Shown piece after piece: positions 2 to 63,280 of a stretch of 64,000 bases of DNA. Under the pieces are notes generated by a model. That model was not told the DNA's origin and searched no databases. It saw nothing but the letters and a program-made list of their open reading frames with translations. Position 1 is the stretch's first letter. Each line of letters starts with the position of its first letter. Made by a program: the position numbers and the translations under genes. Source of the stretch: Methanothermococcus thermolithotrophicus DSM 2095 (GTDB lineage Archaea; AGJL01; Methanococci; Methanococcales; Methanococcaceae). The DNA is taken from the NCBI RefSeq assembly GCF_946463545.1, contig NZ_OX296583.1, positions 682,001 to 746,000 of the forward strand, in the 5' to 3' direction.

Positions 2-1522
2 AGGGATTTTTTAATAAAAAATGGCCATAAATTTAAATCACACACTGATACAGAAGTAGTCCCGCATTTAATCGAGGAAGAATTAAAGAGATATATAGAC
101 AAAACTCTATCCGAGGAAGATTACATAAATGCAGTTAAAAATGCAGTTAAAAAATTGGATGGTACCTATGCACTTTTGATATTGAATAAAAAGTTTCCAA
201 ACGTGTTAATTGGTATTAGAAATGAAAGCCCACTTATTATGGGGATAGGGGATGAAAGCAATAATAAAGAATGCTTTTTAGGGAGCGACATATCTGCGTT
301 TTTAGAATATACAAAGAATATTATTCCTTTGGAGGATGGAGATATTGTAATTTTAAAGAAAGATAATTCTAAAAGTAATAATAACAATAACGTAACTTAC
401 AAGATATATAACAACGAGAAAGACGTTAGCAAAGATAGAAACGTAATGAAAATAGAATGGGATATAGAAAGTGCAGAAAAAGGTGGATATGATCACTTTA
501 TGTTGAAGGAAATAATGGAAGAACCTGTGATTATTAAAAATTCTTCAAAGATATGCAGGGAAGAGATTAAGGAGCTGGCAAAAGCTGTAAAAGATTATGA
601 AAGAATTTACATCGTTGCTATGGGGACTTCACTTCATGCAGCTATGGTTGCAGAATACTGGTTTTCTAAGTTAAATAAATTGGTAATTCCATGTGATTCA
701 TCAGAATTTTTAATTAAAGGTATAGTTGATGAAAAAACGTTAGTTATTGGTATCACCCAGAGCGGGGAAACCTATGACACCATAAAAACAATAAAATACG
801 CAAAGAAAAAAGGTGCAAAAACTGCCACAATAGTGAATGTCTTAGGTAGTACTGCAACGAGGGAAGCAGACATCACAATTATGATGGGCTCAGGTATTGA
901 AATATCAGTATGTGCAACAAAAACCTACATGTCCCAGTTAATGATTTTGTACAGGCTGTTTATTGAATACGGTGAAGTTATCGGCAGAAACATGGATAGA
1001 TATAAAAAAGAACTTGAAAATATCCCAAGTTACATAGAAGAGGTCTTAGAAGAAAGGGAAAATATCAAACAGGTTGCAAAAAACCTAAATGTTAAAAATT
1101 ATATTTTCATTTCAAAGGGTATAAACCTACCTAACGCATTGGAAGGAGCTCTGAAATTTAAAGAAATAACATACCTACATGCCGAAGGGATGAGCAGCGG
1201 GTTTTTAAAGCATGGGACAATATCCCTAATAGATGAAAATATGGATACTGTGGCTCTGATTCCACCTTCAAATTCGGAGCTCTTTAAATCTGTAATCTCA
1301 AATATTGAAGAAATTAAGGCAAGGAATGGAAAAGTAGTAGGGATTAGCCCAGTAGGTATGGAAAATACCGATTATTTAATAAAAGTTCCAGATGTTTTGG
1401 AAGAGGTAAGTCCTTTTGTATATGCCCCTGCCTGTCAGTTGTTGGCATACTACAAAGCAGTTGAACTTGGAAGGGATGTGGATAAGCCAAGGGGATTGGC
1501 AAAGAGCGTAACTGTTGAATAA
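2..1522 (+). CDS. glmS: Glutamine--fructose-6-phosphate aminotransferase, 5'-truncated by window edge
   Basis: Makes glucosamine-6-phosphate from fructose-6-phosphate and glutamine, the entry to amino-sugar synthesis for surface glycans. The reading frame is open from base 2, so the gene begins before the window; 506 residues are visible. The visible N-terminal part is the end of the glutaminase domain (SHTDTEVV, LDGTYALLIL). Two SIS sugar-isomerase domains follow (AMGTSLHAA, TQSGETYDTI; then ALEGALKFKEITYLHAEG), and the end PRGLAKSVTVE is the usual GlmS C-terminus. The catalytic N-terminal Cys lies outside the window. The TTG at 155 is an internal Leu codon, not a start. It converges with the next gene, 9 bp away. 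Confidence 0.93.
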   Translation, partial: RDFLIKNGHKFKSHTDTEVVPHLIEEELKRYIDKTLSEEDYINAVKNAVKKLDGTYALLILNKKFPNVLIGIRNESPLIMGIGDESNNKECFLGSDISAFLEYTKNIIPLEDGDIVILKKDNSKSNNNNNVTYKIYNNEKDVSKDRNVMKIEWDIESAEKGGYDHFMLKEIMEEPVIIKNSSKICREEIKELAKAVKDYERIYIVAMGTSLHAAMVAEYWFSKLNKLVIPCDSSEFLIKGIVDEKTLVIGITQSGETYDTIKTIKYAKKKGAKTATIVNVLGSTATREADITIMMGSGIEISVCATKTYMSQLMILYRLFIEYGEVIGRNMDRYKKELENIPSYIEEVLEERENIKQVAKNLNVKNYIFISKGINLPNALEGALKFKEITYLHAEGMSSGFLKHGTISLIDENMDTVALIPPSNSELFKSVISNIEEIKARNGKVVGISPVGMENTDYLIKVPDVLEEVSPFVYAPACQLLAYYKAVELGRDVDKPRGLAKSVTVE

Positions 1523-1531
1523 TATAAGTTA

Positions 1532-2791
1532 TTAATTTTCATCCTCTCTTCTATCCAACACTTCTATTAATTCCTCCATCTTTGGAGGTAGTTCGTCCCA
1601 TCTCCAAAATCCTCTTAAAATATCTTCTTCGTCATAATACTTTTTTAGATAGTTTACCCATTTATTGAAGAGATCGGGGTGGAGCTCCTTGACCCTTAAA
1701 AATTCACTGTTTAAAGCTGCAGGGCATAGGTAACATCCTATTCTTTCAAATCCTTCTTCATAGAATGGATTGTACATCATGTTTCTTGAATATATGTAGC
1801 TCCATACATCAACGGCATTCCAGTCAAGTATTGGGAATACATTTGTTTGGAAATCTATATATCCATTTTTTCTTTCATAATCTAATTTTGACCTTGTAAA
1901 GCTCTCATACTTCCTTGAACCATCAATTGTTAGGATATTTTTATCCCCGTATTCATTCCTTAAAAATTCTTTTAAAGGGATAAGTTTACATGTGCTGTTA
2001 CACCATCTGTTATCCTTGGTAGGAATCCCTTGGCTATCGAGCTCACTCCAAAAATCTCTACCCTTTACCACGTGTAAATTTAAATCGTATTCTTTGGCAA
2101 AATCTTTAACAAATTTTAAAGTCTCAGGGTATTCTAACCCAGTATCTATAAATATTACATCAATATCTTCAATTACCTTTTTAGCAAGGAGTGTTGATAT
2201 AGAACTATCCTTACCACCACTAAATGACGCATTTATAACATAACCTTTTCTTTTATACATATTAACGTATTTTTTAAGTATTTCCAAGGACTTTTTTTCA
2301 AGGGCGTCCAGTCTCTTCTTATTTTCATCCAAATAATCCTTTATTTTCTTAGTTTCTATTTCCTTCTTTTTTACTAAATCCTTAACTTTCAATCTATTAT
2401 TTTTTTTAACGCCAACACCTATAAAATCCCCTAATTCCAATCCTAAATAATCCATATCTCCGTTCATCAATTCTTTAAATTCTTCAATATTCTCCACCAA
2501 ATCTTCATTAAGCCATTTTCCTTTAAGTCTTCTCTTTGTACGTTTTAAACTTACTTTCGGTTTTTCTAACAAATAGTAATATGGGGAAGGAATAAACTTC
2601 CAATCGAGGTCCACCAAATCAAATTCAAGAATGCCTATCTGAGTATCATTTAAATACACTCTTTTTCTGTAATCCAAACCACTGATTTTTTCAAGAAATA
2701 TCAAATCATCGTATTCAAAATTCTTACCTGTAAGCTTGTTCAGTACATCAATTTCATACCTTGAAGCAAATTTTGTATCTTCTCTAAACAT
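1532..2791 (-). CDS. PAPS-reductase/PP-loop family protein with N-terminal extension
   Basis: 419 residues. The P-loop pyrophosphatase motif SGGKDSS near residue 190 is followed by an adenylyl-binding region (DTGLEYPET) and two Cys pairs (WCNSTCK and GCYLCP), the pattern of the long phosphoadenosine-phosphosulfate-reductase-like proteins of methanococci. About 180 residues of unassigned sequence precede the PP-loop domain. Such proteins may act in sulfur assimilation or tRNA thiolation; the substrate cannot be read from the sequence. The ATG at 2791 is preferred over the upstream TTG at 2803 because GTGTGAT sits just before it. Confidence 0.8.
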   Translation of the reverse strand: MFREDTKFASRYEIDVLNKLTGKNFEYDDLIFLEKISGLDYRKRVYLNDTQIGILEFDLVDLDWKFIPSPYYYLLEKPKVSLKRTKRRLKGKWLNEDLVENIEEFKELMNGDMDYLGLELGDFIGVGVKKNNRLKVKDLVKKKEIETKKIKDYLDENKKRLDALEKKSLEILKKYVNMYKRKGYVINASFSGGKDSSISTLLAKKVIEDIDVIFIDTGLEYPETLKFVKDFAKEYDLNLHVVKGRDFWSELDSQGIPTKDNRWCNSTCKLIPLKEFLRNEYGDKNILTIDGSRKYESFTRSKLDYERKNGYIDFQTNVFPILDWNAVDVWSYIYSRNMMYNPFYEEGFERIGCYLCPAALNSEFLRVKELHPDLFNKWVNYLKKYYDEEDILRGFWRWDELPPKMEELIEVLDRREDEN

Positions 2792-25351: not shown

Positions 25352-25622
25352 TCAGGTATTCTTTTCCTTCCATTCATTTAGTATACTCTCCCAGAAAGGG
25401 GCTTCGCCCTTTTCAAACCCCATACATACCTATTCACTTCGTTCATAGGTATTGTTTCTATTATCTTTAGAAATTTAACGGATAGTTTTGGAGCTTTGCC
25501 CCTTTTCAAACCCTGCACATACACCTATTCGCTCTGCTCATAGTATCGTTTAGGCATTTTAGTATGCTGGGAGTAGTTTAGTTGGTATTTTTTTCCTTCC
25601 ATTCATTTAGTATATTTTCCCA
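25352..25622. repeat. Duplicated cdhE 3' end flanking a hairpin-rich insertion
   Basis: On the minus strand 25393-25352 reads WESILNEWKEKNT-stop, a copy of the true CdhE end WENILNEWKEKNTN-stop (25622-25578), with mostly synonymous changes and its own TGA. Between them lie about 185 bp of short hairpins (AAAGGGG-CTTCG-CCCTTTT type; CCTAT..ATAGG) that are themselves partly duplicated: CCCTTTTCAAACCC occurs near 25408 and 25492, each followed by a CCTATTCnCT element. Confidence 0.75.
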
Positions 25623-27047
25623 GTTTTTCCTTAGGAATTCGCCTACCTGGGATGAGTCTCTTGTACCTACAACACAAGTCCAGCCTGTTTTATCCTCAAT
25701 ATCTCCTCTTGTTGAGGCAGCCAATCCTGGAAGTATTATAATTCTGTGATTTACTTTTTCTTCTAGTTTAGTTTCCTCAATTAGATTCTTAGCATTTTCT
25801 CCACAGTACTGTCCCCCTGCAACCGAAACGTCAACTGCCTTACCTTCAGTATCTAATGCAAGGAGCCAGCAATTAACATCGTCCTTTTCAAAGTCACCGG
25901 TTACTGTGTAGAATGTTAAAGAGAAGTTTGTAGTCATTATCACAGGGCTGTTTTCGTCAGGGTTTCCAACTGGATATAATCCAGGTTCTACTGCCTGTGG
26001 TTTTCTTGGATCAGTGTATATTGCCTGTCTGAGTGTCAATATAGGCATTAATTCCCATGTTTCTGTTCCATGGATTATCATAATATCGGCATATCTGTTT
26101 AAAAGAACGTTAGCTGTCTTAGCCTCTAAAATACCTGCAACTTTATCTTTTTCTCCTATAAAATCTCCCATTGGATTTTCATTGTTCATGGCATAGAAGT
26201 ATGTGTTTATTGGAAGAGCAAGGAGTGGGTATCCAAGTGCCCTGTCCTTTTTTTCAATTGCACTTCTTCGTATCATAACAAATTTATCCATAGTTTCTGC
26301 AATGTTTTCAGGTGTTGTATGAGGGTCTAAAACCAAATCCTCAATTCCGTGTTTTGCACATTCAGTAGCCATTGCCTTTAATTTTTTTACATCATTTGAT
26401 GAAAGTACAAGTGCAAAGTCCTTACCTGATTTTTTCTTTTCCACCAATATTTTAACCAATTCTACGAAATTATCTTCATTTGCAGCGTAAATTAATGGTT
26501 TTGATCTAACCACACCTAAAGCTTCACATATATTGTTTGGATTAAGTGAACATATCGCTATAGGTAATTTTGTTGTTTCTTGAACTATTTTTATAGCAGT
26601 TTTAAATTTTTCTGGATCATTTGAGGCATTTCTTATAGCTATAAAATCTAATTTTAAACGTTCTCCTGTTCTCTCAAATACAAATTCTTCTATGTATTTA
26701 GCCCTATTCTTTATTTCTTCTTCTGTTAAGTTATCGGATACATCTACACCAATTGGGGTTTGGTTGAAAAACGAGAGCTCATACCTATACATTACCTCGT
26801 CTCCACCTACTACACACTTTTTATCGTCATGGCCAAACCAAACTTCTTTAACTGGTGGAGAAAGCAACTCAATAAGTGTATTTTTATTTTTTTCAAATTT
26901 TGAATTGTTTAAAATTGGACATTGTACTACCATAGCCTCTTTATTTTGTAATTTTGTGGCAAAGGCCATACAGGAAGGTTCACCGCATTTTTTACAGTTT
27001 GTTTTTGGTAATAATTTATATATGTCCATTGCACTTACTTTTGCCAT
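25578..27047 (-). CDS. cdhE: Acetyl-CoA decarbonylase/synthase gamma subunit (corrinoid Fe-S protein, large)
   Basis: 489 residues. It carries the methyl group on a corrinoid between tetrahydromethanopterin and acetyl-CoA synthase. The N-terminal four-Cys [4Fe-4S] motif (NCKKCGEPSCMAFATKL, then VQCP) resets the corrinoid redox state; a TIM-barrel follows and the C-terminal part binds B12. The length is normal. It lies 79 bp after cdhD on the same strand, so the two form a pair. GGTGAT precedes two ATG codons; the second is preferred. Its C-terminal codons are duplicated downstream. Confidence 0.94.
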   Translation of the reverse strand: MAKVSAMDIYKLLPKTNCKKCGEPSCMAFATKLQNKEAMVVQCPILNNSKFEKNKNTLIELLSPPVKEVWFGHDDKKCVVGGDEVMYRYELSFFNQTPIGVDVSDNLTEEEIKNRAKYIEEFVFERTGERLKLDFIAIRNASNDPEKFKTAIKIVQETTKLPIAICSLNPNNICEALGVVRSKPLIYAANEDNFVELVKILVEKKKSGKDFALVLSSNDVKKLKAMATECAKHGIEDLVLDPHTTPENIAETMDKFVMIRRSAIEKKDRALGYPLLALPINTYFYAMNNENPMGDFIGEKDKVAGILEAKTANVLLNRYADIMIIHGTETWELMPILTLRQAIYTDPRKPQAVEPGLYPVGNPDENSPVIMTTNFSLTFYTVTGDFEKDDVNCWLLALDTEGKAVDVSVAGGQYCGENAKNLIEETKLEEKVNHRIIILPGLAASTRGDIEDKTGWTCVVGTRDSSQVGEFLRKNWENILNEWKEKNTN

Positions 27048-27126
27048 CATATCACCATTTATGAACGAACCGTGTTTTGTGAGTAAAGATAAGATATATT
27101 TATAAAAAAATAAATTAACAAGTTAA

Positions 27127-61979: not shown

Positions 61980-63065
61980 ATGAAATTCGGATGGATACTG
62001 GCAAATGGAGAATCATGGGATGAAAGGAAAGAAAACGTAAAAGATGCACTGGAAAGTTCAATTCCAGGTGTAATGGTTAACAGAGAAGATATTGAAAGTG
62101 TAAGAGAACTAGGAAACATATCGGTAATATCAAATGATTTAGGTGCAGATATTGTTGTAATAAACAAAAACGAAGATTTAGAAATTTTAAAGAATGCATG
62201 GGAACTGGGCAAAAAGACTGGAGTCTATGTTCCTATTGAAAGTAAAGAAGATGAAGTATTTGCTTCAGAAGTTAGCAGACTCGAATACGTCAACTACATT
62301 ATTTTGGAGGGAAAAGACTGGACAATAATTCCTCTAGAAAACCTCATTGCAGACTTATTTAATGAAGACGTAAAAATAGTTGCAGTAGTTAACAGCGTTG
62401 ATGAAGCTGAAACATCCTATGAAATCTTAGAAAAAGGTGTTGATGGAGTCGTATTAATTCCGAAAGACACCAACGAAATCAAAGAGTTCTCAAGATTGAT
62501 AGAAAAAATGAATGCAGAAAAAATAGAACTAGATGTTGCCACAATTGTAAATGTTGAACCTGTTGGAAGTGGAGACAGAGTTTGTATAGATACCTGTTCA
62601 ATGATGAAAACTGGAGAAGGTATGTTAATAGGTTCTTACTCAAGAGGCATGTTTTTAGTTCATTCTGAAACTGTTGAAAACCCATACGTTTCCACAAGAC
62701 CATTTAGAGTAAATGCTGGCCCAGTCCATGCATACATCCTATGCCCAGGAAATAAGACAAAATATTTAAGTGAGTTAAAAGCAGGGGATAGAGTCTTAGT
62801 AATTAACAGCGAAGGAATGACAAAAGAAACAGTTATTGGCAGAGTTAAAATAGAAAAAAGACCATTAATGCTTATTGAAGCTGAATACAACGGAGACATA
62901 ATAAGAACTGTACTCCAAAACGCTGAAACTATAAGGTTGGTCGGAGAAGATGGGCAACCAATATCTGTGGTAGATTTAAAACCAGGGGATAAAGTTTTAA
63001 TAAAAGCCGATGAAAACGCAAGACATTTTGGAATGGCCATTAAAGAGACTATTATAGAAAAATAG
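61980..63065 (+). CDS. aroB': 3-dehydroquinate synthase II (archaeal, ADTH pathway)
   Basis: 361 residues. Converts 2-amino-3,7-dideoxy-D-threo-hept-6-ulosonate to 3-dehydroquinate with NAD, replacing AroB in methanogens. Conserved WDERKENVKDALESSIPGVM, VEPVGSGDRVCIDTCSMM, GEGMLIGSYSRGMFLVHSE and STRPFRVNAGPVHAY are the MJ1249-type signatures. GGTGAAGCC precedes the ATG. Its last codons (KETIIEK-stop) are copied downstream. Confidence 0.94.
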   Translation: MKFGWILANGESWDERKENVKDALESSIPGVMVNREDIESVRELGNISVISNDLGADIVVINKNEDLEILKNAWELGKKTGVYVPIESKEDEVFASEVSRLEYVNYIILEGKDWTIIPLENLIADLFNEDVKIVAVVNSVDEAETSYEILEKGVDGVVLIPKDTNEIKEFSRLIEKMNAEKIELDVATIVNVEPVGSGDRVCIDTCSMMKTGEGMLIGSYSRGMFLVHSETVENPYVSTRPFRVNAGPVHAYILCPGNKTKYLSELKAGDRVLVINSEGMTKETVIGRVKIEKRPLMLIEAEYNGDIIRTVLQNAETIRLVGEDGQPISVVDLKPGDKVLIKADENARHFGMAIKETIIEK

Positions 63066-63225
63066 GCATAATGCCAATTGGATCCAACTTTTTTAAAGGA
63101 GTTGGATGGAGATTGGATTACCAGTTCCTTATTAACTACTAAAAGACATTACCAAGTAAAACGGTAGTGCATTCTTTGGATCCAACCTTTTTTAAAGGTT
63201 GGAAGGAAACCATTATAGAAAAATA
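63045..63225. repeat. Duplicated aroB' 3' end flanking a repeat-bounded insertion
   Basis: GAGACTATTATAGAAAAATA (63045-63064, gene end) recurs as GAAACCATTATAGAAAAATA (63206-63225). Between them lie two TTGGATCCAAC-type repeats about 100 bp apart. The second, TCCAACCTTT-TTT-AAAGGTTGGA (63181-63203), is a perfect 10-bp hairpin. The copy keeps the frame KETIIEK-stop, with two synonymous changes. Confidence 0.7.
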
Positions 63226-63280
63226 AACAAAAACTTCACTTCTTATCTTTTTTAAATTTAAAAATTAACATGGGATGAGT

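Follow-up and report, generated by a model that had tools for sequence, protein, structure and literature searches.

Why is the 3' end of cdhE, the gene encoding the ACDS complex gamma subunit, written twice in Methanothermococcus thermolithotrophicus DSM 2095, and what is the DNA that lies between the two ends? The window analyzed here is a stretch of 64,000 nucleotides from contig NZ_OX296583.1, and positions are counted from its first letter (Table 1). The first-pass annotation had described a duplicated cdhE tail around a hairpin-rich insert, and a repeat search of the window bears this out: positions 25355 to 25394 and 25584 to 25623 form a 40-nt repeat pair with 37 identities (93%) and a spacing of 229 nt. 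The local tail score is 32.5, against a maximum of 20.5 in a tail-to-downstream control with 441 re-paired genes. In minus-strand translation, the two copies differ by two synonymous changes and one nonsynonymous change and then end in AAC TAA versus TGA. Thus, the outer block was rightly said to encode the same gene end with mostly synonymous changes, although the two ends are not identical. A selenocysteine reading of TGA in Methanococcus cdhE was rejected; it is an ordinary stop.

Table 1. Features of the two duplicated gene ends in the window
Feature	Position	Strand	Remarks
cdhE (ACDS complex gamma subunit), with present end	25578..27050	-	NCBIfam NF003195 match, 1.1e-188
Inner (present) cdhE tail	25578..25622	-	Duplication start to stop, WENILNEWKEKNTN-stop
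Element copy B (worn)	about 25490..25551	-	First hairpin 25521-25549; GGGTTTGAAAAGGGG cap-like part 25490-25513
guaB 3'-end-like stretch	25458..25497	-	AACTATCCGTTAAA...; meets copy B at a GAAGC(C/T)CC-like word common to both
Element copy A	25394..25465	-	Hairpin 25426-25452, spacer, cap hairpin 25394-25421 abutting outer tail
Outer (displaced) cdhE tail	25352..25393	-	WESILNEWKEKNT-stop
Second case: inner tail of 3-dehydroquinate synthase II gene (61980-63065)	63042..63065	+	KETIIEK-stop
Second case: insert	63066..63202	+	Two GGATCCAAC...GTTGG hairpins; last (63182-63202) abuts outer tail
Second case: outer tail	63203..63226	+	KETIIEK-stop; differences all synonymous

Along cdhE, the inner tail and its stop are followed by a short stretch, a worn module (copy B, with 79% identity to the element consensus), a guaB-like piece, a fresher module (copy A), and the displaced tail. 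The partial duplications noticed earlier inside the insert are these two modules. The piece between them matches the guaB tail and its element at 83 of 94 nt, with guaB itself about 172 kb away; hence, a gene tail and a module are able to travel together. As the first-pass annotation had stated, the insert lacks an open reading frame (none of at least 60 amino acids in the window's list), and the repeat search reported no inverted-repeat pair around it. The 329-nt region folds better than 100 of 100 shuffles (z, -2.46). The cap stem is imperfect, and cdhE is one of the cases in which the outer copy has no perfect hairpin at a distance of 4 nt or less (see below).

Two comparisons suggested at the outset were carried out. 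The cdhE 3' ends of 27 relatives were examined, and none is duplicated. A search of the host genome (G000) for the insert found the hairpin module of copy A also 3' of guaB, where the outer tail is no longer present, and 3' of a zinc-ribbon gene, whose tail is itself duplicated (65 bp, 88%). In the same genome, a related hairpin lies within a duplicated dapF tail, leuD has a tandem array of four to five units, each a tail plus hairpin, and a second case is found in the window (Table 1). A one-off duplication at cdhE was therefore rejected, as there are many cases. The first-pass annotation had held that a copy in unrelated genes would count against its reading; the same hairpin module does occur in unrelated genes, yet this widens the finding rather than ending it. 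Separately, a gene at L064:13906-16536 (minus strand), encoding a HypF-like protein as judged by eye, contains about five near-identical short peptide repeats (TNPSDSLVSHSIRN), apparently an in-frame tandem insertion.

Matches to a 73-nt element consensus at E values of 0.1 or less occur in 17 of 41 genomes, mostly short and weak; strong ones beyond the host genome were found in G023, G033, G027, G029, and G003. A stricter cap pattern matches in 4 of 36 genomes of the phylum. Six genomes were then represented by twenty 20-kb stretches each (less than half of each genome), and gene tails were compared with downstream DNA. The host sample was enriched, in that L064 and L065 were taken for their element matches, and the guaB row of G023 was a site known beforehand. 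CRISPR, tRNA, and paralogue rows aside, duplicated tails around hairpin inserts are present in G000, G023, G006, G027, and G009. A stop-anchored peptide scan gave scores of at least 30 for 6 of 486 genes in G000, 6 of 389 in G023, 8 of 382 in G006, 4 of 393 in G027, and 4 of 384 in G009, counts that still contain CRISPR, tRNA, and paralogue rows, with 0 to 0.3 per scan in the re-paired control. The re-paired tail controls rule out a chance origin of the tail duplications.

In G005, which we take to be a genome of the Methanococcus lineage, the peptide scan found none of 395 genes at a score of 26 or more, the first scan found none of 372 genes with a tail or head score of at least 19, and a wider scan with 400-bp tails yielded paralogue rows and one weak noncoding head row. 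The genus that includes it (g3) is not wholly free of such duplications: G008 has one exact 26-bp case (L083), in a gene whose product, from its C-terminal end, looks like a tyrosine recombinase. The four other sampled genomes with this anatomy belong to the thermophile lineage of Methanococcales, and the cdhE case is one of many. Two observations concern hairpins elsewhere. CRISPR arrays of G035, G030, and G026 (L079, L081, L082, L088, and L089, near position 1500) contain a related hairpin, CCAATAGGGGCGAAGCCCCTATGG, that adjoins a CRISPR repeat present in a partial second copy, which looks as though the repeats of an array were targeted in the way that gene ends are. At L174:10850-11200, upstream of a gene, there is an intergenic multihairpin array in which the stems differ while the linkers recur (CTCGAC..GTGAGTC).

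The anatomy of these cases is regular. Cases were curated by hand into a set of 17, and a set of 20 was made by adding the window's second case, G006 L209:4704, and G008 L083. Left out of both were CRISPR arrays, tRNA clusters, tandem paralogues, low-complexity or weak rows (L183, L250, L246, L243, and L252), short matches starting less than 10 bp from the stop (L171, L201, L209:16365, and L254:4472), and the weak G006 rows L209:3417 and L210. Duplications vary in length from 26 to 75 bp (30 to 75 bp from start to stop in the 17 cases), the copies are mostly 80 to 95% alike, and the inserts measure about 26 to 242 nt. In 13 of the 20 cases, a hairpin with a perfect stem (at least 7) terminates no more than 4 nt from the outer copy (7 lack one), and in a single case such a hairpin starts that close to the inner copy; among random intergenic points, 137 of 3,291 (4%) have such a hairpin. 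The outer junction is thus where the cap sits. The first bases of the outer copies contain GTTG in 4 of 20 cases (background, 1.1%) and GGAG/GAGA-type words in 13 of 20 (background, 8%), a motif that was picked post hoc; the truA head, which is outside the motif set, reads GTTGGAAGGA in the same orientation.

Head duplications mirror the tails: in truA and L198 of G023, and in tfs (gene named by eye) of G009 and of L001, the cap hairpin lies at the outer copy or close to it. The head scan gave few cases, of which truA and L198 are the convincing ones. When the hairpins of the same tfs insertion are compared between two species (L241 and L001), paired changes are seen in both arms (GCAACC..GGTTGC versus GCACCC..GTGTGC, and ATAAAATTCC..GGAATTTTAT versus ATGAAATTTC..GAAATTTCAT). 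The inner copy of G027 L229 has no native stop, so a proper gene end is not rebuilt by every insertion. This nitrogenase-like gene (859-1932, minus strand) now continues into the hairpin insert, with loss of its native last residues, so that the protein is altered by the insertion. An intron or bypass reading was dropped, since the inner copy normally appears to have a stop of its own.

The divergence between the copies is of the coding type. Pooled over the 17 cases, whose alignments contain no gaps, inner and outer copies differ by 62.5 synonymous changes on 153.7 sites and by 27.5 nonsynonymous changes on 629.3 sites. Synonymous changes outnumber nonsynonymous ones in 14 cases, the reverse holds in two (1:7 in the zinc-ribbon gene and 1:3 in G009), and one case is a tie. 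Both copies were therefore coding until recently, and the coding-type divergence first remarked on at cdhE holds for the pooled set as well. A diversity-generating retroelement was dropped because the inner and outer copies of the zinc-ribbon gene do not differ in an A-specific manner.

This divergence bears on a rival reading, in which a hairpin element transposes in the ordinary way with a long, variable target duplication (26 to 75 bp). Insertions would survive only close to a stop or start, where the duplication reconstitutes the gene, and the two copies would stay similar through later gene conversion and through exchange with empty alleles. The excess of synonymous over nonsynonymous changes is unexpected for an untranslated outer copy. 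It is also at odds with this reading that homology ends at or near the stop of G023 hypE even at 95% identity, that the tails of G023 L184 differ by a whole codon while both retain ...LF-stop, and that the length is not constant; a constant-length target duplication was rejected for G023 hypE and G027 L229, where homology stops at 42 bp. Target duplication would, on the other hand, produce the exact or near-exact copies seen in guaB of G033 (73/73) and G027 (64/65) and in G008 L083 (26/26), and it fits the bound of 75 bp, as the 400-bp-tail scan added no longer convincing case. The tfs heads of two species, which vary together within each species, and the native-like inner atpD copy of G027 (see below) also favor it. 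Plain target duplication accounts for the exact cases and the 75-bp bound and leaves the synonymous excess unexplained, and we regard it as a rather unlikely account of the whole.

For guaB, atpD, and cas4, several species share the codon at which the duplication begins, and others lack the duplication. Among 29 relatives whose guaB end was examined, four (G023, G033, G027, and G029) have the element between duplicated guaB tails of 65 to 73 bp. Of 14 genomes of the genus, 5 carry the atpD duplication, all at one position, and the remaining nine have a single match. For cas4, 3 of 14 genomes (G027, G032, and G028) are duplicated, with gaps of about 184, 389, and 104 bp, respectively. At guaB, G023 and G029 share the inner tail without a single difference over 57 nt, along with about 75 bp upstream, whereas 9 of 57 positions distinguish their outer tails; this is expected from the transfer of an inner tail plus element into different resident tails. 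In the same insert (L122/L116), the first hairpin has its interior in opposite orientations in G023 (GAGCGAAGCGAGG) and G029 (TCGCTTCGCTCGG), a scar of hairpin inversion. At atpD of G027, the outer copy is the more diverged and the inner copy is closer to the empty relatives. Among 13 genomes of relatives, the inner-tail query gave the better match in 10, an equal one in 1, and the worse one in 2 (these last over different ranges). The proposal that the outer copy is the old end and the inner copy the newcomer is thus partly supported: it fits guaB in G023 and G029, may or may not apply to cdhE, and is contradicted by the opposite polarity at atpD of G027.

Two further readings can be weighed against these comparisons. 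In the first, there is no dedicated element, and the duplications are passive by-products of DNA uptake, in which incoming DNA recombines homologously with the gene and its far side is joined illegitimately at a hairpin, as in homology-facilitated illegitimate recombination. Coding-type divergence, the stretch of identity upstream of the guaB duplication in G023 and G029, and the joint move of a diverged guaB tail and its element into the cdhE insert would all fit. It is harder to see why the same few hairpin families should set the outer junction in unrelated genes, why outer copies should start at a recurrent purine-rich motif (chosen post hoc), or why 75 bp should be the greatest distance between duplication start and stop among the curated cases, and we think this origin unlikely. 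A purely local event, that is, tandem duplication or replication slippage at hairpins in one genome with neither transfer nor a mobile element, seems highly improbable. The leuD array and the apparently inverted hairpin interiors would suit it; the recurrence of the module in unrelated genes and other genera, the synonymous nature of the differences, the guaB-like tail piece inside the cdhE insert, and the identical inner tails of two species would not.

The reading that we prefer, at about even confidence, is that the cdhE insert is one member of a family of small, noncoding, mobile hairpin elements that reside at gene ends and spread by breaking and copying. The recurrent anatomy, the cap at the outer junction, the coding-type divergence, and the same-site presence or absence between species are observed; the break, the copying, the enzyme, and the direction of transfer we infer as follows. 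(i) A break would occur at a purine-rich site (often GTTG or GGAG/GAGA) within the last 25 or so codons of a gene or, in mirror image, within its first codons. (ii) The gene-side end would be extended on the template of a homologous allele with the element already in place, the gene end being copied first and the hairpins next. (iii) Copying would halt behind the terminal cap hairpin, and the cap would be joined to the other side of the break, such that a complete gene end is kept (the inner copy) and the resident end is displaced (the outer copy). (iv) Later exchange between inserted and empty alleles could spread the insertion among species and could also remove it precisely. Import of a gene end accounts for the coding-type divergence and the guaB pattern, and it leaves the site preference and the 75-bp bound to a putative enzyme. 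Against the preferred reading stand the failure of the searches to find an enzyme (see below), the more diverged outer atpD copy of G027, the cases with a nonsynonymous excess or a tie, the post hoc choice of the motif, the seven cases without a perfect cap hairpin, and the missing native stop of G027 L229. With respect to the earlier suggestion of tail-targeted integration, tail-replacing insertion is indeed the better class of explanation, whereas classical integrase targeting is unsupported, given the module in unrelated genes, the head duplications, and the absence of an insert-borne open reading frame.

The closest analogue, as far as the comparison of anatomies goes, appears to be the mobile-ORF elements of fungal mitochondria, here without the ORF. 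Those elements are described as replacing gene C termini in Allomyces atp6 and in atp6, atp9, cox2, and nad3 of a Glomus sp.; the foreign gene end takes over the function, the resident C terminus stays behind downstream, most differences between the copies are synonymous, the distribution is patchy among close relatives, and the inserts, of up to about 1 kb in mitochondrial DNA, carry a LAGLIDADG or GIY-YIG endonuclease ORF (PMC3630166). The archaeal cases share the duplicated gene end, the resident end displaced downstream, and the coding-type divergence. They differ in being short, chromosomal, made of hairpins only, and also found at gene heads, with polarity shown only at guaB, and because they lack an ORF we do not file them with the fungal type. 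Double-hairpin or repetitive hairpin-forming elements of mitochondria are described as small, intergenic, and patchy, with two hairpins and a mobility inferred from presence and absence (PMC2800124 and PMC5910586). Two hairpins and presence/absence between relatives are likewise seen here, and common descent is not claimed; unlike the Allomyces double-hairpin elements, for which flanking duplications are reported to be lacking (PMC2800124), the archaeal inserts have gene-end duplications as their hallmark.

Like MITEs, IS200/IS605 derivatives, and REP elements, the archaeal inserts are short and noncoding, have hairpin ends, and are probably moved in trans. IS200/605 insertion is not known to make a target duplication. 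The Y1 transposase family (PF01797) has matches in 5 of 41 genomes, G000 and G023 not among them, in contrast to what IS200/IS605 derivatives would need, and unlike a target-site-duplicating transposon or MITE the inserts have no fixed-length exact repeat, exact copies being confined to guaB of G033 and to G008. Integrative elements in gene 3' ends, such as icd, bring a replacement tail that displaces the old one, are kilobases in size, encode an integrase, and use one fixed site. The replacement and displacement would be shared with our cases, which by contrast have small inserts without an ORF in many unrelated genes. Candidate sources were also searched: within the sampled stretches, no ORF-bearing version was found 350 to 5,000 bp downstream, where only two rows had a noncoding outer copy (a CRISPR array in G000 and a weak row in G005). 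An Rfam search of six loci matched only tRNA and CRISPR repeats and nothing on the inserts. A phage or plasmid origin was rejected, as a plasmid collection had no match to the cdhE region or to a 68-nt element sequence and viral contigs had none to two cap patterns. The texts returned by a literature search hold no description of such gene-end duplications in Methanococcales; the accessible part of the RepRanger account gives 1,190 and 1,349 REP candidates for two Methanocaldococcus genomes, without the gene-end-duplication anatomy.

We raise tentatively, as possible though doubtful, the idea that these inserts make up an ORF-less homing system of archaeal chromosomes, in which hairpin-capped DNA spreads between species, has its favored site in the ends of housekeeping genes, saves the gene by means of a replacement end from the donor, and relies on a host enzyme in trans. 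They would then parallel, in archaea and without an ORF, the elements that swap gene ends in fungal mitochondria, and a record of cross-species exchange would be written into ordinary enzyme genes. The same-site present/absent pairs among Methanocaldococcus-type species are ready material for studying how hairpin DNA moves. They also carry a warning that gene 3' ends in such genomes can differ in history from the gene body.
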